Below are positions 9,935 to 42,750 of a stretch of 43,137 nucleotides of DNA, piece after piece. Positions within the stretch are counted from its first letter, which is position 1. Each line of letters begins with the position of its first letter. The stretch lies in contig JAEUHH010000112.1 in NCBI GenBank assembly GCA_016795505.1, positions 1 through 43,137 of the forward strand, written 5' to 3'. The notes beneath the pieces were generated by a model, which saw only the letters and a list, made by a program, of their open reading frames with translations, was not told the origin of the DNA and made no database searches. The position numbers and the translations under genes were made by a program. The stretch comes from Verrucomicrobiales bacterium (GTDB lineage Bacteria > Verrucomicrobiota > Verrucomicrobiia > Verrucomicrobiales > DEV007).

Positions 9935-12169
<2,235 letters not shown>

Positions 12170-12331
12170 TTATTGGTTCCGCCCTGATGCCGATGCGGGC
12201 GGCGCCAGCAACGGAGCGGTTGGCAAAGCCTTGGTGGTTCTCTTTTTGGCCTTTATGGGCGATAAGGAAAAAGCGGATGTCTCTGTCTCCAGTAGAACAC
12301 CCATCTACTCTTCAATACGGGCGAGACTGAA

Positions 12332-12377
12332 ATGCATCCAATGCATTGTCGAAATATTTGCGATGCAAAAAACGCAT
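12332..12377. promoter_or_regulatory. Two predicted LysR-type (OxyR) boxes between katG and its regulator
   Basis: Two T-N11-A dyads: ATGCAT-CCA-ATGCAT at 12332-12346 and ATGC-AAAAAAC-GCAT at 12363-12377. Their centres are 31 bases apart, close to three helical turns, which suits a LysR tetramer. They differ from the E. coli OxyR half-site. They lie 15-60 bases before the regulator's start and about 190 bases from the katG start. Inference from pattern only. Confidence 0.5.
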
Positions 12378-12391
12378 GGTTCTGTAAACCC

Positions 12392-13282
12392 ATGCGATTC
12401 GACGTCGAACTCACCCAACTCGAACACTTCGTCGCCGTAGCGCGGGCGCGAAACATCACCCGGGCATCCGCGGACCTGAACCTTTCCCAATCCTCCCTGA
12501 GCCGGTCCATCCAAAAGCTTGAGGAGCAGGTGGGCCAGCCCCTTTTCGAGCGAAAGCCGCGGGAGGTCGTGCTCACCGATGTTGGTGAACTCCTTTTGGA
12601 GCGGGCCAAAGAGATCCTGAAACGGGTGGAAGACACCTTTTCCCAAGTTTCAGAGGCGGGCCTCAGTGGTCGCATCCGGCTCGGAGCGATTCCAACGATC
12701 GCCCCCTACTTCTTGCCCGGTCTGCTGCGGGGTTTTGCCGAATCTCACCCCAACATCACCGTCTCCGTGCAGGAGGACACCACCGACATCCTCCTGAAAC
12801 GTTGCAGCCATGGCGAGATCGACCTGGCGATTCTGGCCCTGCCCGTGATCGCCAAATACCTCGAGATCGAGCCACTATTCGATGAGGAATTACTCCTCGT
12901 CACCCCGCCCGACCATCCCCTGGCCGGCAATGCGCGCATCACGCCCGAAGCGGTGGAGGCATTCCCGTTCATCCTGCTGAACGAGGCACACTGCTTGTCG
13001 GACAATATCGCGACCTATTGCCGCCAGCAATCCATGCAGCCCGTCACTGTCGAGCGTCTCAGCCAGCTCGCCACGGTGCAGGAACTCGTCGCACTCGGGC
13101 ACGGCATCTCCATCATCCCCGAGATGGCTCGCCGCCTCGACTCCAGCGAGCGGCGCGTCTATCGATCCTTCTCCGGCGAGAAGCCCTTTCGCACCCTTTC
13201 CATGGCGTGGAATCCCTACCGCTATCAGAGCAAGTGGGTGAAGTCCCTGATCGCTCATCTGCGGAAAAGTCGGAGCGCCTGA
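12392..13282 (+). CDS. oxyR: OxyR-like LysR-family peroxide regulator
   Basis: A 296-residue LysR-type regulator. The N-terminal winged helix-turn-helix covers about 1-60 (LEHFVAVARARNITRASADL, LSQSSLSRSIQKLEEQVG). The effector domain has C201 and C210 in HCLSDNIATYC, matching the position and nine-residue spacing of the redox cysteines of OxyR (C199/C208 in E. coli). This indicates a thiol-disulphide peroxide sensor rather than a metabolite sensor. The divergent neighbour katG is the obvious target. The start at 12392 fits LysR N-termini; an ATG 60 bases upstream (12332) would place the operator boxes inside the gene and adds 20 residues absent from typical relatives. A hairpin terminator overlaps the stop. 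Confidence 0.9.
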   Translation: MRFDVELTQLEHFVAVARARNITRASADLNLSQSSLSRSIQKLEEQVGQPLFERKPREVVLTDVGELLLERAKEILKRVEDTFSQVSEAGLSGRIRLGAIPTIAPYFLPGLLRGFAESHPNITVSVQEDTTDILLKRCSHGEIDLAILALPVIAKYLEIEPLFDEELLLVTPPDHPLAGNARITPEAVEAFPFILLNEAHCLSDNIATYCRQQSMQPVTVERLSQLATVQELVALGHGISIIPEMARRLDSSERRVYRSFSGEKPFRTLSMAWNPYRYQSKWVKSLIAHLRKSRSA

Positions 13283-38409: not shown

Positions 38410-40830
38410 TCATGGGCTACTCACATCAGCAGCGGGCACCGCGGTCCGATCCCGACGTGCCACCCGCCACCAGGCGGGCAGCAGCCAGACCGCGGTGGCC
38501 ATGTTGACGAGGATGCCGAGCGCGCAGATCCGGCCGAGACTGCTGAGTCCCTCGCTGGCCGCAAAGGCGAGCGATCCGAATCCGGCGGCCGTGGTGAGGC
38601 CGCAGAAAATGAGGGACCGCGCGATGCCACGACGAATGGCAGTGAGATCACCGCGCTCGCGGCGCAGGGCAAAGATCATGTGAATGGCGTAGTCGAGCCC
38701 GGTGCCGAACAGGATGGGCAGGCTGCTGACATTGAAGGTATCCCACTGGATCCCCAGCCAGGCCGCCAGGGTGACCAGGCTCAGGCTGGCGAAGATGAGC
38801 GAGCCGATGGCCAGCAGGGTCTCCTGCCAGGTGCGGAAAACGAGCCCCAACATAACGGCCAAAATGAGACCCATGGGAATGAAGACCCGACGGAAATCCC
38901 CGGCGACGAGATGCTGGAGGGCCGGATTCACCGTGTCCCAACCGGTGATCTGGATACCGGGGGCATTGACGGAGCCACCCCAAGCGAGATGTCCGGCGGC
39001 ATCCGTCTCCAGCGAGGTGGGCAGCAGTCGGCCGACAGCCGCACAGGGGCCGTCCGATCCGTCCGGGGGCAGGGAAATGGCACGACCGATGAGCCAGCGG
39101 CCGAAATCACCGCGCGGCCGGGCGGCGGGATCGGCCCAGGCAGAGAGGATTTGCCGGGTGAGGACGGTGGCTTCGTCGTTGAACCCAGCGGCAAGAATGG
39201 CGCGGGCGAGACGCTCGGGATCGGCGGCGAGACGGGCCAGCACCGGGCGGTTTGCCTCCAGGCGACGGGGATCGGGAGCCAGAGCGATGGGAAGCTGGTA
39301 GTTTTTCACCATTCCCGCAACTTGGGCGGCAGCCAGACGCTTTCCGGCGTGTGCGAGCCGGTCGGCGAGTGCCTCGGGACTCTCGGCCGTGACTACGACA
39401 GGGAGATGGGGCAGCGAACCGGGCACATCACCGCCGAGACGGGCCGTCATGGTCTCAAAAGCAGCAGCCGCGGCGCTGTCCCTCAACTGAAAGGGCCGGG
39501 CATCGCGATGGAGCTGCGGGGGGCCGGCGATGAGCCAGGTCACCGCGATGGCGATCAGGGCGGCCAGAGTGACGGGCGATGCGACAGTCCATTTTCCTCC
39601 GGTGCCGGCAATGGCTGCCGGGGCGCTTGCGGGAGGCGGCAAGTCCGGAGGTTGCCGGACAATGATGGGGGCGAACACGCCCAGCATGACGCCGGCGCCC
39701 ACAAGGGTGCCGATGGCCACCAGGGTGCCCAAGTCAGCAATGCCCGGCAGGCTGGAGAAATTCAGCGCCGCAAAGGCCGCCGCCGTGGTGGCGGCAGCCC
39801 AGAGGATGCCGGGGCCGACCTGTCGACGCAGCACAGAAGTCTGACCGCAGGCATGGGAGCTCTCCCGGTAGAGGATGATCCCATAGTCGACAGCGAGACC
39901 AAGCAAAATGGCGGCAAAGCCGATGCTCATGGCCGTGAGCGTGCCGAACAGGACTCCGCCGAGGGCAAAAGTGGCCGAAAAAATGATCCCGAGCATCAGC
40001 ACCAGCCACAACAGGGGCGCGAGCCGCCGGTGCCAAAGCCAGAAAAGTCCGGCGATGAGCAGGGTGGTGGAGATGACGGAGCCGGTCATGTCACGCTCCA
40101 TGGCCAGGGAAATCTCGGCGACAAAGGCCGGCTCTCCGGTGATGCCAACCGCGAGGGCATCACCTTGGTCGGCCTGCCAGGCGGCGATCTCCGCCCTCAC
40201 GGAGTCGATCCATGCTGCAGTCTCCTGATAGCCGGAGAAAGAGGCGACCGGCGCCTCCAAATAGATCACGCGGAAGGCGCCATCGGCGGAGGCGAACAAA
40301 TCGGCATCGGCACCCACGCTTTCCCGCAGGCCGCCGGGCAATGCCGTCAAGCCGAGCGGATCGTAGCCCAGGAGCAGAGTCTCGGGTCCCAGAAAGCCGG
40401 ATGCGAGGCTGTCCAGAGTTTCCGCGAGCGTTTCGTCCACCCGCTCCGGCGCGAGGCGTTCCGCGAGGGCGCGGACGGCATCTGGAGGACTGTTTTGCCA
40501 CAACCAGGCCAGGAGATCGGCCGCGAGGGCGGGATTATCCTCAAAAGGCAGGTGCCACGCCACGGCACCGGCGAGATCGGGGCGGTCGGAGAAACGCGCC
40601 GCGAGGGACGCAGCAGCCTCGCGGGCGCGGTCGGCATCCGATGCCGACAGGGTGAGGAGCAGTTCATTTTCCCGACCAAAATGCCGGTAAAGATCACGGA
40701 TGGCCTCGAATTCGGGCTGTCCGGCGGGCAGGAGATCGAGGACATCGACATTGAAGCTCAGGCGCGACCAGCCGATGGCGGTGAGTGCCGCCCAAGCCAG
40801 GATCAGGAAAACGACGCGCATCTGCCTCAT
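38410..40830 (-). CDS. MMPL/RND-family exporter
   Basis: An 806-residue membrane protein with two RND half-repeats. The first helix (MRVVFLILAWAALTAIGW) is followed by a periplasmic loop that opens FNVDVLDLLP, then a bundle of helices (about 245-400; LLWLVLMLGIIFSATFALGG, AILLGLAVDYGIILYRE), a second loop and a second bundle (about 645-795; LPILFGTGLDYAIHMIFALRRE). The GLAVDYGI and GTGLDYAIH segments match the proton-relay helices of MMPL transporters. Family members export lipids, hopanoids or aryl-polyene-type esters. It is divergent from a chorismatase with 85 bases or less between starts, as in pigment clusters. The start is 40830 or the Met three codons later. Confidence 0.9.
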   Translation of the reverse strand: MRQMRVVFLILAWAALTAIGWSRLSFNVDVLDLLPAGQPEFEAIRDLYRHFGRENELLLTLSASDADRAREAAASLAARFSDRPDLAGAVAWHLPFEDNPALAADLLAWLWQNSPPDAVRALAERLAPERVDETLAETLDSLASGFLGPETLLLGYDPLGLTALPGGLRESVGADADLFASADGAFRVIYLEAPVASFSGYQETAAWIDSVRAEIAAWQADQGDALAVGITGEPAFVAEISLAMERDMTGSVISTTLLIAGLFWLWHRRLAPLLWLVLMLGIIFSATFALGGVLFGTLTAMSIGFAAILLGLAVDYGIILYRESSHACGQTSVLRRQVGPGILWAAATTAAAFAALNFSSLPGIADLGTLVAIGTLVGAGVMLGVFAPIIVRQPPDLPPPASAPAAIAGTGGKWTVASPVTLAALIAIAVTWLIAGPPQLHRDARPFQLRDSAAAAAFETMTARLGGDVPGSLPHLPVVVTAESPEALADRLAHAGKRLAAAQVAGMVKNYQLPIALAPDPRRLEANRPVLARLAADPERLARAILAAGFNDEATVLTRQILSAWADPAARPRGDFGRWLIGRAISLPPDGSDGPCAAVGRLLPTSLETDAAGHLAWGGSVNAPGIQITGWDTVNPALQHLVAGDFRRVFIPMGLILAVMLGLVFRTWQETLLAIGSLIFASLSLVTLAAWLGIQWDTFNVSSLPILFGTGLDYAIHMIFALRRERGDLTAIRRGIARSLIFCGLTTAAGFGSLAFAASEGLSSLGRICALGILVNMATAVWLLPAWWRVARRDRTAVPAADVSSP

Positions 40831-40880
40831 GATTCAGGCGTCCAAACTGAGAGGGCCAGTCGCCAAAGTCAAAGGAGCGA

Positions 40881-40910
40881 TTGACACCCCTGATTTGGCA
40901 AACCTTAATA
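40881..40910 (+). promoter_or_regulatory. Predicted promoter of the chorismatase gene, leaderless arrangement
   Basis: A consensus -35 TTGACA (40881-40886), an 18-base spacer and a -10-like TTAATA (40905-40910). The ATG at 40916 begins six bases after the -10 box, where RNA would be expected to start, so the mRNA would have no leader. If translation starts at 40829 instead, this match is inside the gene and would be chance. Confidence 0.5.
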
Positions 40911-40915
40911 ACCTG

Positions 40916-41866
40916 ATGGAGACCTTGGTAAAAACGCCAGCGTTCCGGCTGATTTTCGGCCGGGAAGCGACGGCGTGCCGGGTGGATGGCTCGGGACTCT
41001 CTGCCGGACTGGCCATGCCGGTGTTGGCGGGTCGGCCCGTCGACCGCCTGCTGACCATCCCCGAGGGTGGCTCGGTCCAGCGTTTGGGAGCCCTGTACCT
41101 GGTGAAAACGGACGAGGGTGAAGTCATCGGCGGTTTTGCCTCGCTGCCCTGCCCGGGACCCGTGGAATCGGTCGCCCGGCAGATTTACGGCGAAATTCTG
41201 CCAGCATTGGGAGACCAGGCGCTTTACCGGATGTGGAATTTTGTGCCGCACATCAATGCGACCGTGGCGGGCCGGGAGCAATACCAGAGTTTCAATGTGG
41301 GGCGCTGCCACGCGTTTCGCGAACACTACGGCGAGGCAGCCATGGAATCACGACTCCCGGCGGCTTCGGCGGTGGGAATTGACGAGCCGGTGCTGGCTGT
41401 CGGCTTTTTGACGGGCCGGGGTCCGGTCGCTTTTTTTGAGAACCCGCACCAAGTGCCCGCTTACCGATACCCGGAGCAATATGGCCCCTGTTCGCCCAGT
41501 TTTGCCCGCGGGGCCGTGGTGACAGGCGTGGATGGCGGCTCCATCGGCTATTTGTCCGGGACCTCGAGCATCCGCGGACACGAGACCATCGGCAAAGGGT
41601 CGTTGGAAGCGCAGTTTGGCACCACCCTGGAGAATATCGGCGCGATTTTGGAGCGGATGGGATTCGCGGACGGACTGGACCCCGACTGGGCTGGGGAACG
41701 GGCCTTCCGGGTATACCTGCGAAATCCCGGCGATCTGGACCGGGTGCGCGAGCGCTTTGCCTCTGTGGTTGGCGAGACGGCAGCTGAGGCAGACACCATG
41801 TACCTGCAAGCCGACATCTGCCGATCGCCGTTACTGCTGGAAATCGAGGGTGTTTTCGCCCGCTGA
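40916..41866 (+). CDS. Chorismatase (FkbO/Hyg5/XanB2-like)
   Basis: A 316-residue enzyme (345 if it starts at the ATG at 40829) of the chorismatase family, which hydrolyses or rearranges chorismate to dihydroxycyclohexadienoate or to 3- or 4-hydroxybenzoate. Family marks are LYRMWNFVPHIN, YQSFNVGRCHAF, FFENPHQVPAYRYPEQYGP, SPSFARG, GYLSGTSSIRGHETIGKG and the C-terminal LQADICRSPLLLEIEG. Which of the three reactions it performs cannot be told without the active-site residues being compared. In xanthomonads the homologue XanB2 makes 3- and 4-hydroxybenzoate for xanthomonadin and ubiquinone and sits beside an MMPL exporter; here an MMPL gene is divergent. I prefer the start at 40916 because of the promoter, but the upstream one would overlap the MMPL start by two bases. 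Confidence 0.87.
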   Translation: METLVKTPAFRLIFGREATACRVDGSGLSAGLAMPVLAGRPVDRLLTIPEGGSVQRLGALYLVKTDEGEVIGGFASLPCPGPVESVARQIYGEILPALGDQALYRMWNFVPHINATVAGREQYQSFNVGRCHAFREHYGEAAMESRLPAASAVGIDEPVLAVGFLTGRGPVAFFENPHQVPAYRYPEQYGPCSPSFARGAVVTGVDGGSIGYLSGTSSIRGHETIGKGSLEAQFGTTLENIGAILERMGFADGLDPDWAGERAFRVYLRNPGDLDRVRERFASVVGETAAEADTMYLQADICRSPLLLEIEGVFAR

Positions 41867-41994: not shown

Positions 41995-42750
41995 ATGAAC
42001 GGGACGATTTGGCAAAGGGCATCTTCGGTCGGGTGCATACTGCTTTTCGGTCTGCTGGCAGGCGGTTGCGCTGTGTTGCCCAGACCGGCGGAAGATCCCG
42101 TGCCCGCAACCTGGCATCGATTGTCAGAGGCATCTCCGGCAGACAGCACCCTGCTGGTCCTGTTGCCGGGAAGGCGGGAGCAGCCGGGCGATTTCGAGCG
42201 TCACGGCTTTTTCGCCGACATTCGGCCGGAACACCGGCTCGATGTGGTGACTGTCGACCTCCATCTCGGTTACTATCGGGAGCGCAACCTCGACGTGCGG
42301 CTGCGGCAGGATATTCTGGAGCCCGCCCGGCAACAGGGCTACCGGCGCATTGAGATGATCGGTGTGTCACTCGGCGGGTTGGGGGCATTGATTTACACCG
42401 ACCGATTTCCCGGGGAAGTCGACCGTATTGTCTTGCTGTCACCCTACACAGGTGGCGAAGCGATCGTGCGGGAAATCCGTGCTGCCGGTGGTCTGGAGCG
42501 CTGGAAACCCGGCCTGGTCGAAGAGGATGATCGGGATCGCGAGATTTGGGCCGCTTGGCGAGATCGTCCTCCAGCTGCGGGAGATCGTCCGGAGACCCTT
42601 GTCGCAGTGGGAGCGCAGGATCGGTTCCGGGAAGCGAATGCGCTTTTCGCCGACACCTTTCTCGGTGGCCGCCTGACTGTGATCGATGGCGGACACGACT
42701 GGAAGACATGGACGACATTGTTCCGAAGCCTTTTCAATCTGGGATCGTAG
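41995..42750 (+). CDS. Lipoprotein alpha/beta hydrolase
   Basis: A 251-residue protein with a lipoprotein signal (CILLFGLLAGGC; lipidated Cys at 25). The mature part is an alpha/beta hydrolase: STLLVLLPGRREQPGDF (oxyanion region), GVSLGG with S125 as nucleophile, VAVGAQDRF (acid) and DGGHDWKTW (His). It is probably an envelope esterase or thioesterase; no substrate is clear. It follows the chorismatase by 128 bases on the same strand, with locus E of the repeat between, so a shared role with the chorismatase/MMPL pair is possible but not shown. Confidence 0.85.
   Translation: MNGTIWQRASSVGCILLFGLLAGGCAVLPRPAEDPVPATWHRLSEASPADSTLLVLLPGRREQPGDFERHGFFADIRPEHRLDVVTVDLHLGYYRERNLDVRLRQDILEPARQQGYRRIEMIGVSLGGLGALIYTDRFPGEVDRIVLLSPYTGGEAIVREIRAAGGLERWKPGLVEEDDRDREIWAAWRDRPPAAGDRPETLVAVGAQDRFREANALFADTFLGGRLTVIDGGHDWKTWTTLFRSLFNLGS

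Follow-up and report, generated by a model that had tools for sequence, protein, structure and literature searches.

A divergent chorismatase and MMPL exporter gene pair as the probable first and last steps of a dispersed aryl polyene pathway in a Verrucomicrobiales bacterium

Aryl polyenes of the xanthomonadin type are protective membrane pigments. The closest described systems, the arcuflavin genes of Azoarcus sp. BH72 (arcA-X) and the xanthomonadin genes of Xanthomonas, have in common a chorismatase, AMP-ligase, ACP, KS, CLF-like KS, ketoreductase (KR), and dehydratase, along with a halogenase-like FAD enzyme, methyltransferase, polysaccharide deacetylase, glycosyltransferase, acyltransferases, LolA, and an exporter, and the Azoarcus chorismatase ArcB and ligase ArcT have been assayed (PMC3949708). 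Aryl polyene clusters in the Verrucomicrobiota have been reported by genome surveys (e.g., PMC9865893), and a literature search found no paper joining "chorismatase" and "aryl polyene". The same gene list was identified in the 6.5 Mb genome (120 contigs) of a Verrucomicrobiales bacterium, where a chorismatase gene and an MMPL exporter gene lie together on contig C33, the 43137-base window. It is very probable that this pair represents the first and last steps of a dispersed xanthomonadin/arcuflavin-type aryl polyene pathway and is not an orphan. The pathway type is already known; unusual are its scattered layout and a KS-CLF fusion. The Azoarcus genes also occupy more than one locus (two loci) but with the chorismatase and exporter in different ones, whereas here these are divergent neighbors, a single chain carries both KS and CLF, unlike in Azoarcus and Xanthomonas, the remaining genes are spread over several contigs, and the nearest named relatives of the genome are Verrucomicrobiota.

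The exporter gene (38410..40821, minus strand) codes for an HpnN-like MMPL/RND-type protein of 803 aa that matched Pfam PF03176 (E 1e-25) and is the orthologue of the exporter in the aryl polyene clusters of relatives, with 57% identity to G061:C36 and 49% to G069:C4, both of which are divergent from an orthologous chorismatase gene. The hopanoid transporter HpnN shares the MMPL/RND family and a similar length, but this assignment was rejected on a score far under the cut-off (154 versus 752 bits) and a different gene neighborhood devoid of hopanoid genes. The chorismatase gene lies on the plus strand (40916..41866, 316 aa from the ATG at 40916) and is supported by profile, structure-database, and AlphaFold-model matches. 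Longer forms can be read from 40829 (345 aa) and from 40700, the latter a 388-aa open reading frame that begins inside the MMPL gene. Since sequence conservation among genus relatives and the confident part of the AlphaFold model both set in around Met30 of the 345-aa form, whose residues 1-32 were modeled with very low confidence, the start is most likely 40916 and not 40700. The divergent arrangement described in the earlier note was confirmed with this corrected start, both genes being real and separated by approximately 94 bp. Alignment of three loci revealed within this shared upstream region (40822..40915) a block, AAGTCAAAG...GATTGACACC, that two genus relatives have conserved as well and that possibly provides a -35 element on each strand and might thereby have a promoter function; a consensus scan of 40822-40915 returned no sigma-70 site. 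The lipoprotein-like alpha/beta hydrolase gene at 41995-42750, which had been grouped with the pair, was rejected as a member of the unit, as no relative of this gene turned up in the related loci.

PF21168 (E 9e-18) and TIGR04444 (E 1e-48) both matched the chorismatase, the latter at 166 bits and so below its 325-bit cut-off. The solved structures nearest to the enzyme were Hyg5 (CH-II, PDB 5ag3/5a3k; E 8e-34 to 5ag3, approximately 30% identity) and FkbO (4bps; E 4e-26), to which the AlphaFold model aligned with TM scores of ~0.75 and ~0.72, respectively. In Hyg5, Glu-334 is the catalytic acid and the CH-II marks are Gly, Gly, and Cys (PMC7170507). The equivalents of Hyg5 Glu334, Gly240, and Cys327 are Glu338, Gly244, and Cys331, conserved in 95 to 99 of 101 homologues with gaps in nearly all others, and the fold together with the catalytic Glu places the protein among the FkbO/Hyg5/XanB2-type enzymes. 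The active site is therefore intact, in contrast to the dead site named in the earlier note as evidence against its reading. FkbO has Ala at both the Gly240 and Cys327 positions, and assignment to the FkbO type (CH-I) was rejected on the presence of Gly244 and Cys331. The third signature residue, Hyg5 Gly173, is replaced by Ala181, as in 88 of 99 homologues of the clade, so that sequence does not fix the exact product; the same holds for the family in general, in which the product is not deducible from alignment alone (PMC3949708). The Hyg5-like Gly and Cys in an intact active site suggest 3-hydroxybenzoate (3-HBA) as the likely product, with a 3-/4-HBA mixture also possible. Enzymes of the XanB2 type (CH-III) yield both 3-HBA and 4-HBA, and we know of no chemistry for any member of the clade to which the present enzyme belongs.

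A second, distant chorismatase-like protein (approximately 31% identity) is encoded on contig C95 of the same genome (L037:7853-9067). This protein keeps the catalytic Glu, Gly, and Cys, has Thr in place of Asn143, and leads a conserved operon of DUF1549/DUF1553, DUF1501, and PPC-domain protein genes that also occurs at L044, L045, L051, L052, L053, and L055; a DUF1549 gene adjoins the chorismatase-like gene in 14 of 14 loci of this clade and in 0 of 100 of the other. The different clade and operon led to its rejection as a pathway enzyme.

With Streptomyces-type starter enzymes as its nearest solved structures and large modular PKS genes present in the genome (C43 and C11), the chorismatase could be thought to supply such a PKS with a starter unit, as FkbO and Hyg5 do in Streptomyces. 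This is scarcely credible, as the relatives examined have no conserved modular PKS neighborhood and consistently contain aryl polyene genes in its place. Very large ketosynthase-containing PKS-type proteins are encoded in the genome at L038:1748-13684 (3978 aa) and L039:7206-11123 (more than 1306 aa, truncated at the contig edge).

The earlier note saw no polyketide cluster and, of an aryl polyene pathway, just the two ends. No polyketide gene is indeed visible in the window, but the view that just the ends are present is not supported, the missing parts having been found on other contigs of the genome, as the note had itself allowed. The KS and CLF are encoded as a 743-aa fusion on C7 (L036:8305-10536) that keeps the KS Cys and two His, with Ser replacing Cys in the CLF half; the fusion is restricted to genera g1 and g8, the genes being separate and adjacent elsewhere. 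The ACP (75% identity to its orthologue) and an FAD enzyme (65%) are encoded on C57, the KR on C48 (72%, with the next best candidates at 39-42%), and the AMP-ligase on C75 (56%). Contig C4 carries a glycosyltransferase-methyltransferase (GT2-MT; 70% identical to that of G061), a polysaccharide deacetylase, an ABC transporter, LolA, and a FabZ-type dehydratase, and C116 carries an LpxL-type acyltransferase (62%) and a small membrane protein. The genome hence holds every part expected of an aryl polyene pathway (KS and CLF, KR, dehydratase, ACP, aryl-AMP ligase, acyltransferase, glycosyltransferase, LolA, and exporter), which supports the aryl polyene link drawn in the earlier note. Physical clustering, usual though not strictly defining for such pathways, is lacking, as the genes occupy at least five separate contig regions while being clustered in relatives.

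A 7-bp tandem repeat, (ATCTTGG)n, is dispersed over many genomic sites, breaks contigs, and stands at the ends of C4, C82, and C116. C4 and C116 likely join through such an array, the gene order in relatives favoring this junction, although the motif is widespread in the genome and also opens a third contig, C82. The pair and LpxL are set apart by more than a contig break, since the genes downstream of the MMPL gene on C33 (38 kb) differ from those beside LpxL on the 113-kb C116. In the genus relative G061, the KS-CLF, KR, ACP, and FAD enzyme genes lie side by side on one contig and are flanked by the same DnaK/GroEL genes as the C7 fusion, from which the KR and ACP-FAD genes have probably moved away in the present genome. 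The spread over several contigs, compared with two main gene groups plus a ligase in genus relatives, and the absence of a second FAD enzyme present in many relatives could be expected of a decaying pathway whose genes are remnants without joint function after break-up of the cluster in this lineage. Such decay is very improbable given that the core genes are all intact open frames with 56-75% identity to their orthologues and retain the KS Cys/His motifs, the ACP DS motif, and the chorismatase Glu, Cys, and Gly.

As the genes lie on at least five separate stretches, their co-function in the dispersed pathway is inferred from relatives. By coordinates, 10 of the 75 family genomes, representing seven genera, had the chorismatase and MMPL genes directly adjacent and divergent (G000, G061, G063, G069, G066, G036, G035, G068, G071, and G018), and a wider locus set contained further adjacent pairs (e.g., at L168 and at L174 and L180, from the cultured Verrucomicrobium sp. 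strains BvORR034 and BvORR106), contrary to the possibility raised in the earlier note that they are rarely neighbors in relatives. Next to the pair, G061 and G069 both carry genes for an LpxL-type acyltransferase, a deacetylase, a GT2-methyltransferase, and ABC proteins, which come after it (CHO-MMPL-LpxL-TM-deacetylase-GT2MT-ABC on a single contig of G061, distinct from that of the KS-CLF group), and the G069 locus additionally contains genes for an FAD halogenase-like enzyme, PlsC, LolA, and a FabZ-type protein. In the Opitutae and other Verrucomicrobiota, the chorismatase gene lies inside clusters with ligase, GT2, PlsC, KS, and ACP genes, such as the clusters with ligase, glycosyltransferase, KS, and ACP at L172, L186, L198, L200, and L205 and the single row CLF-KS-AMP ligase-FabZ-GT2-MT-deacetylase-LpxL-FAD-chorismatase at L191 and L195. 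Among the 75 family genomes, 18 had both the pair-clade chorismatase and the KS orthologue, four only the KS, four only the chorismatase (some of these genomes being incomplete), and 49 neither (Fisher P 4e-10); the corresponding counts for chorismatase and GT2 were 20 with both, two and three with a single gene, and 50 with neither (P 5e-13), the P values being guides only for related, non-independent genomes.

A unit of their own, in which the chorismatase and exporter make and export free hydroxybenzoate or a simple hydroxybenzoyl lipid, e.g., as a signal and independently of a polyene, would match the physical separation of the pair from the other pathway genes, its one common upstream region, and the known role of XanB2-derived 3-HBA as a diffusible factor (PMC3949708). 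The embedding of the pair in relatives among acyltransferase, glycosyltransferase, ABC, and FAD genes and the strong co-occurrence of chorismatase with KS nevertheless make it quite improbable, and the need for a separate hydroxybenzoate export function is not supported. HpnN-like MMPL proteins, moreover, transport lipids and not small acids.

In the favored dispersed aryl polyene pathway, as predicted from homology, the chorismatase would convert chorismate to hydroxybenzoate (3-HBA most likely, perhaps 4-HBA as well) and pyruvate, and the AMP-ligase would load the hydroxybenzoate onto the dedicated ACP. Type II cycles of KS-CLF, KR, and the FabZ-type dehydratase would then build a conjugated polyene to be modified by the FAD enzyme, methyltransferase, and glycosyltransferase, attached to a lipid by the LpxL-type acyltransferase, and carried to the outer membrane by the MMPL, LolA, and ABC proteins. 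The chances appear about even that the complete pathway works despite its genes residing at five or more chromosomal sites, with a fused KS-CLF and with co-regulated starter enzyme and exporter genes retained as divergent neighbors, such that a pigment cluster was dismantled within one genus. The genome would offer a simple genus-level case of dispersal of a biosynthetic cluster with its genes retained, and cluster-based genome mining would probably miss the pathway, as no single locus resembles an aryl polyene cluster. The chorismatase-fed, hydroxybenzoate-started aryl polyene route appears widespread in the Verrucomicrobiota.

Elsewhere in the window, similar transposase genes of the REP-associated type (by eye) lie at both contig ends (3-200 and 42899-43135) and probably explain why C33 breaks off there. 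A peroxidase-family gene resembling catalase-peroxidase (9935-13282) is divergent from a LysR-type regulator gene, by eye in an OxyR-like arrangement.
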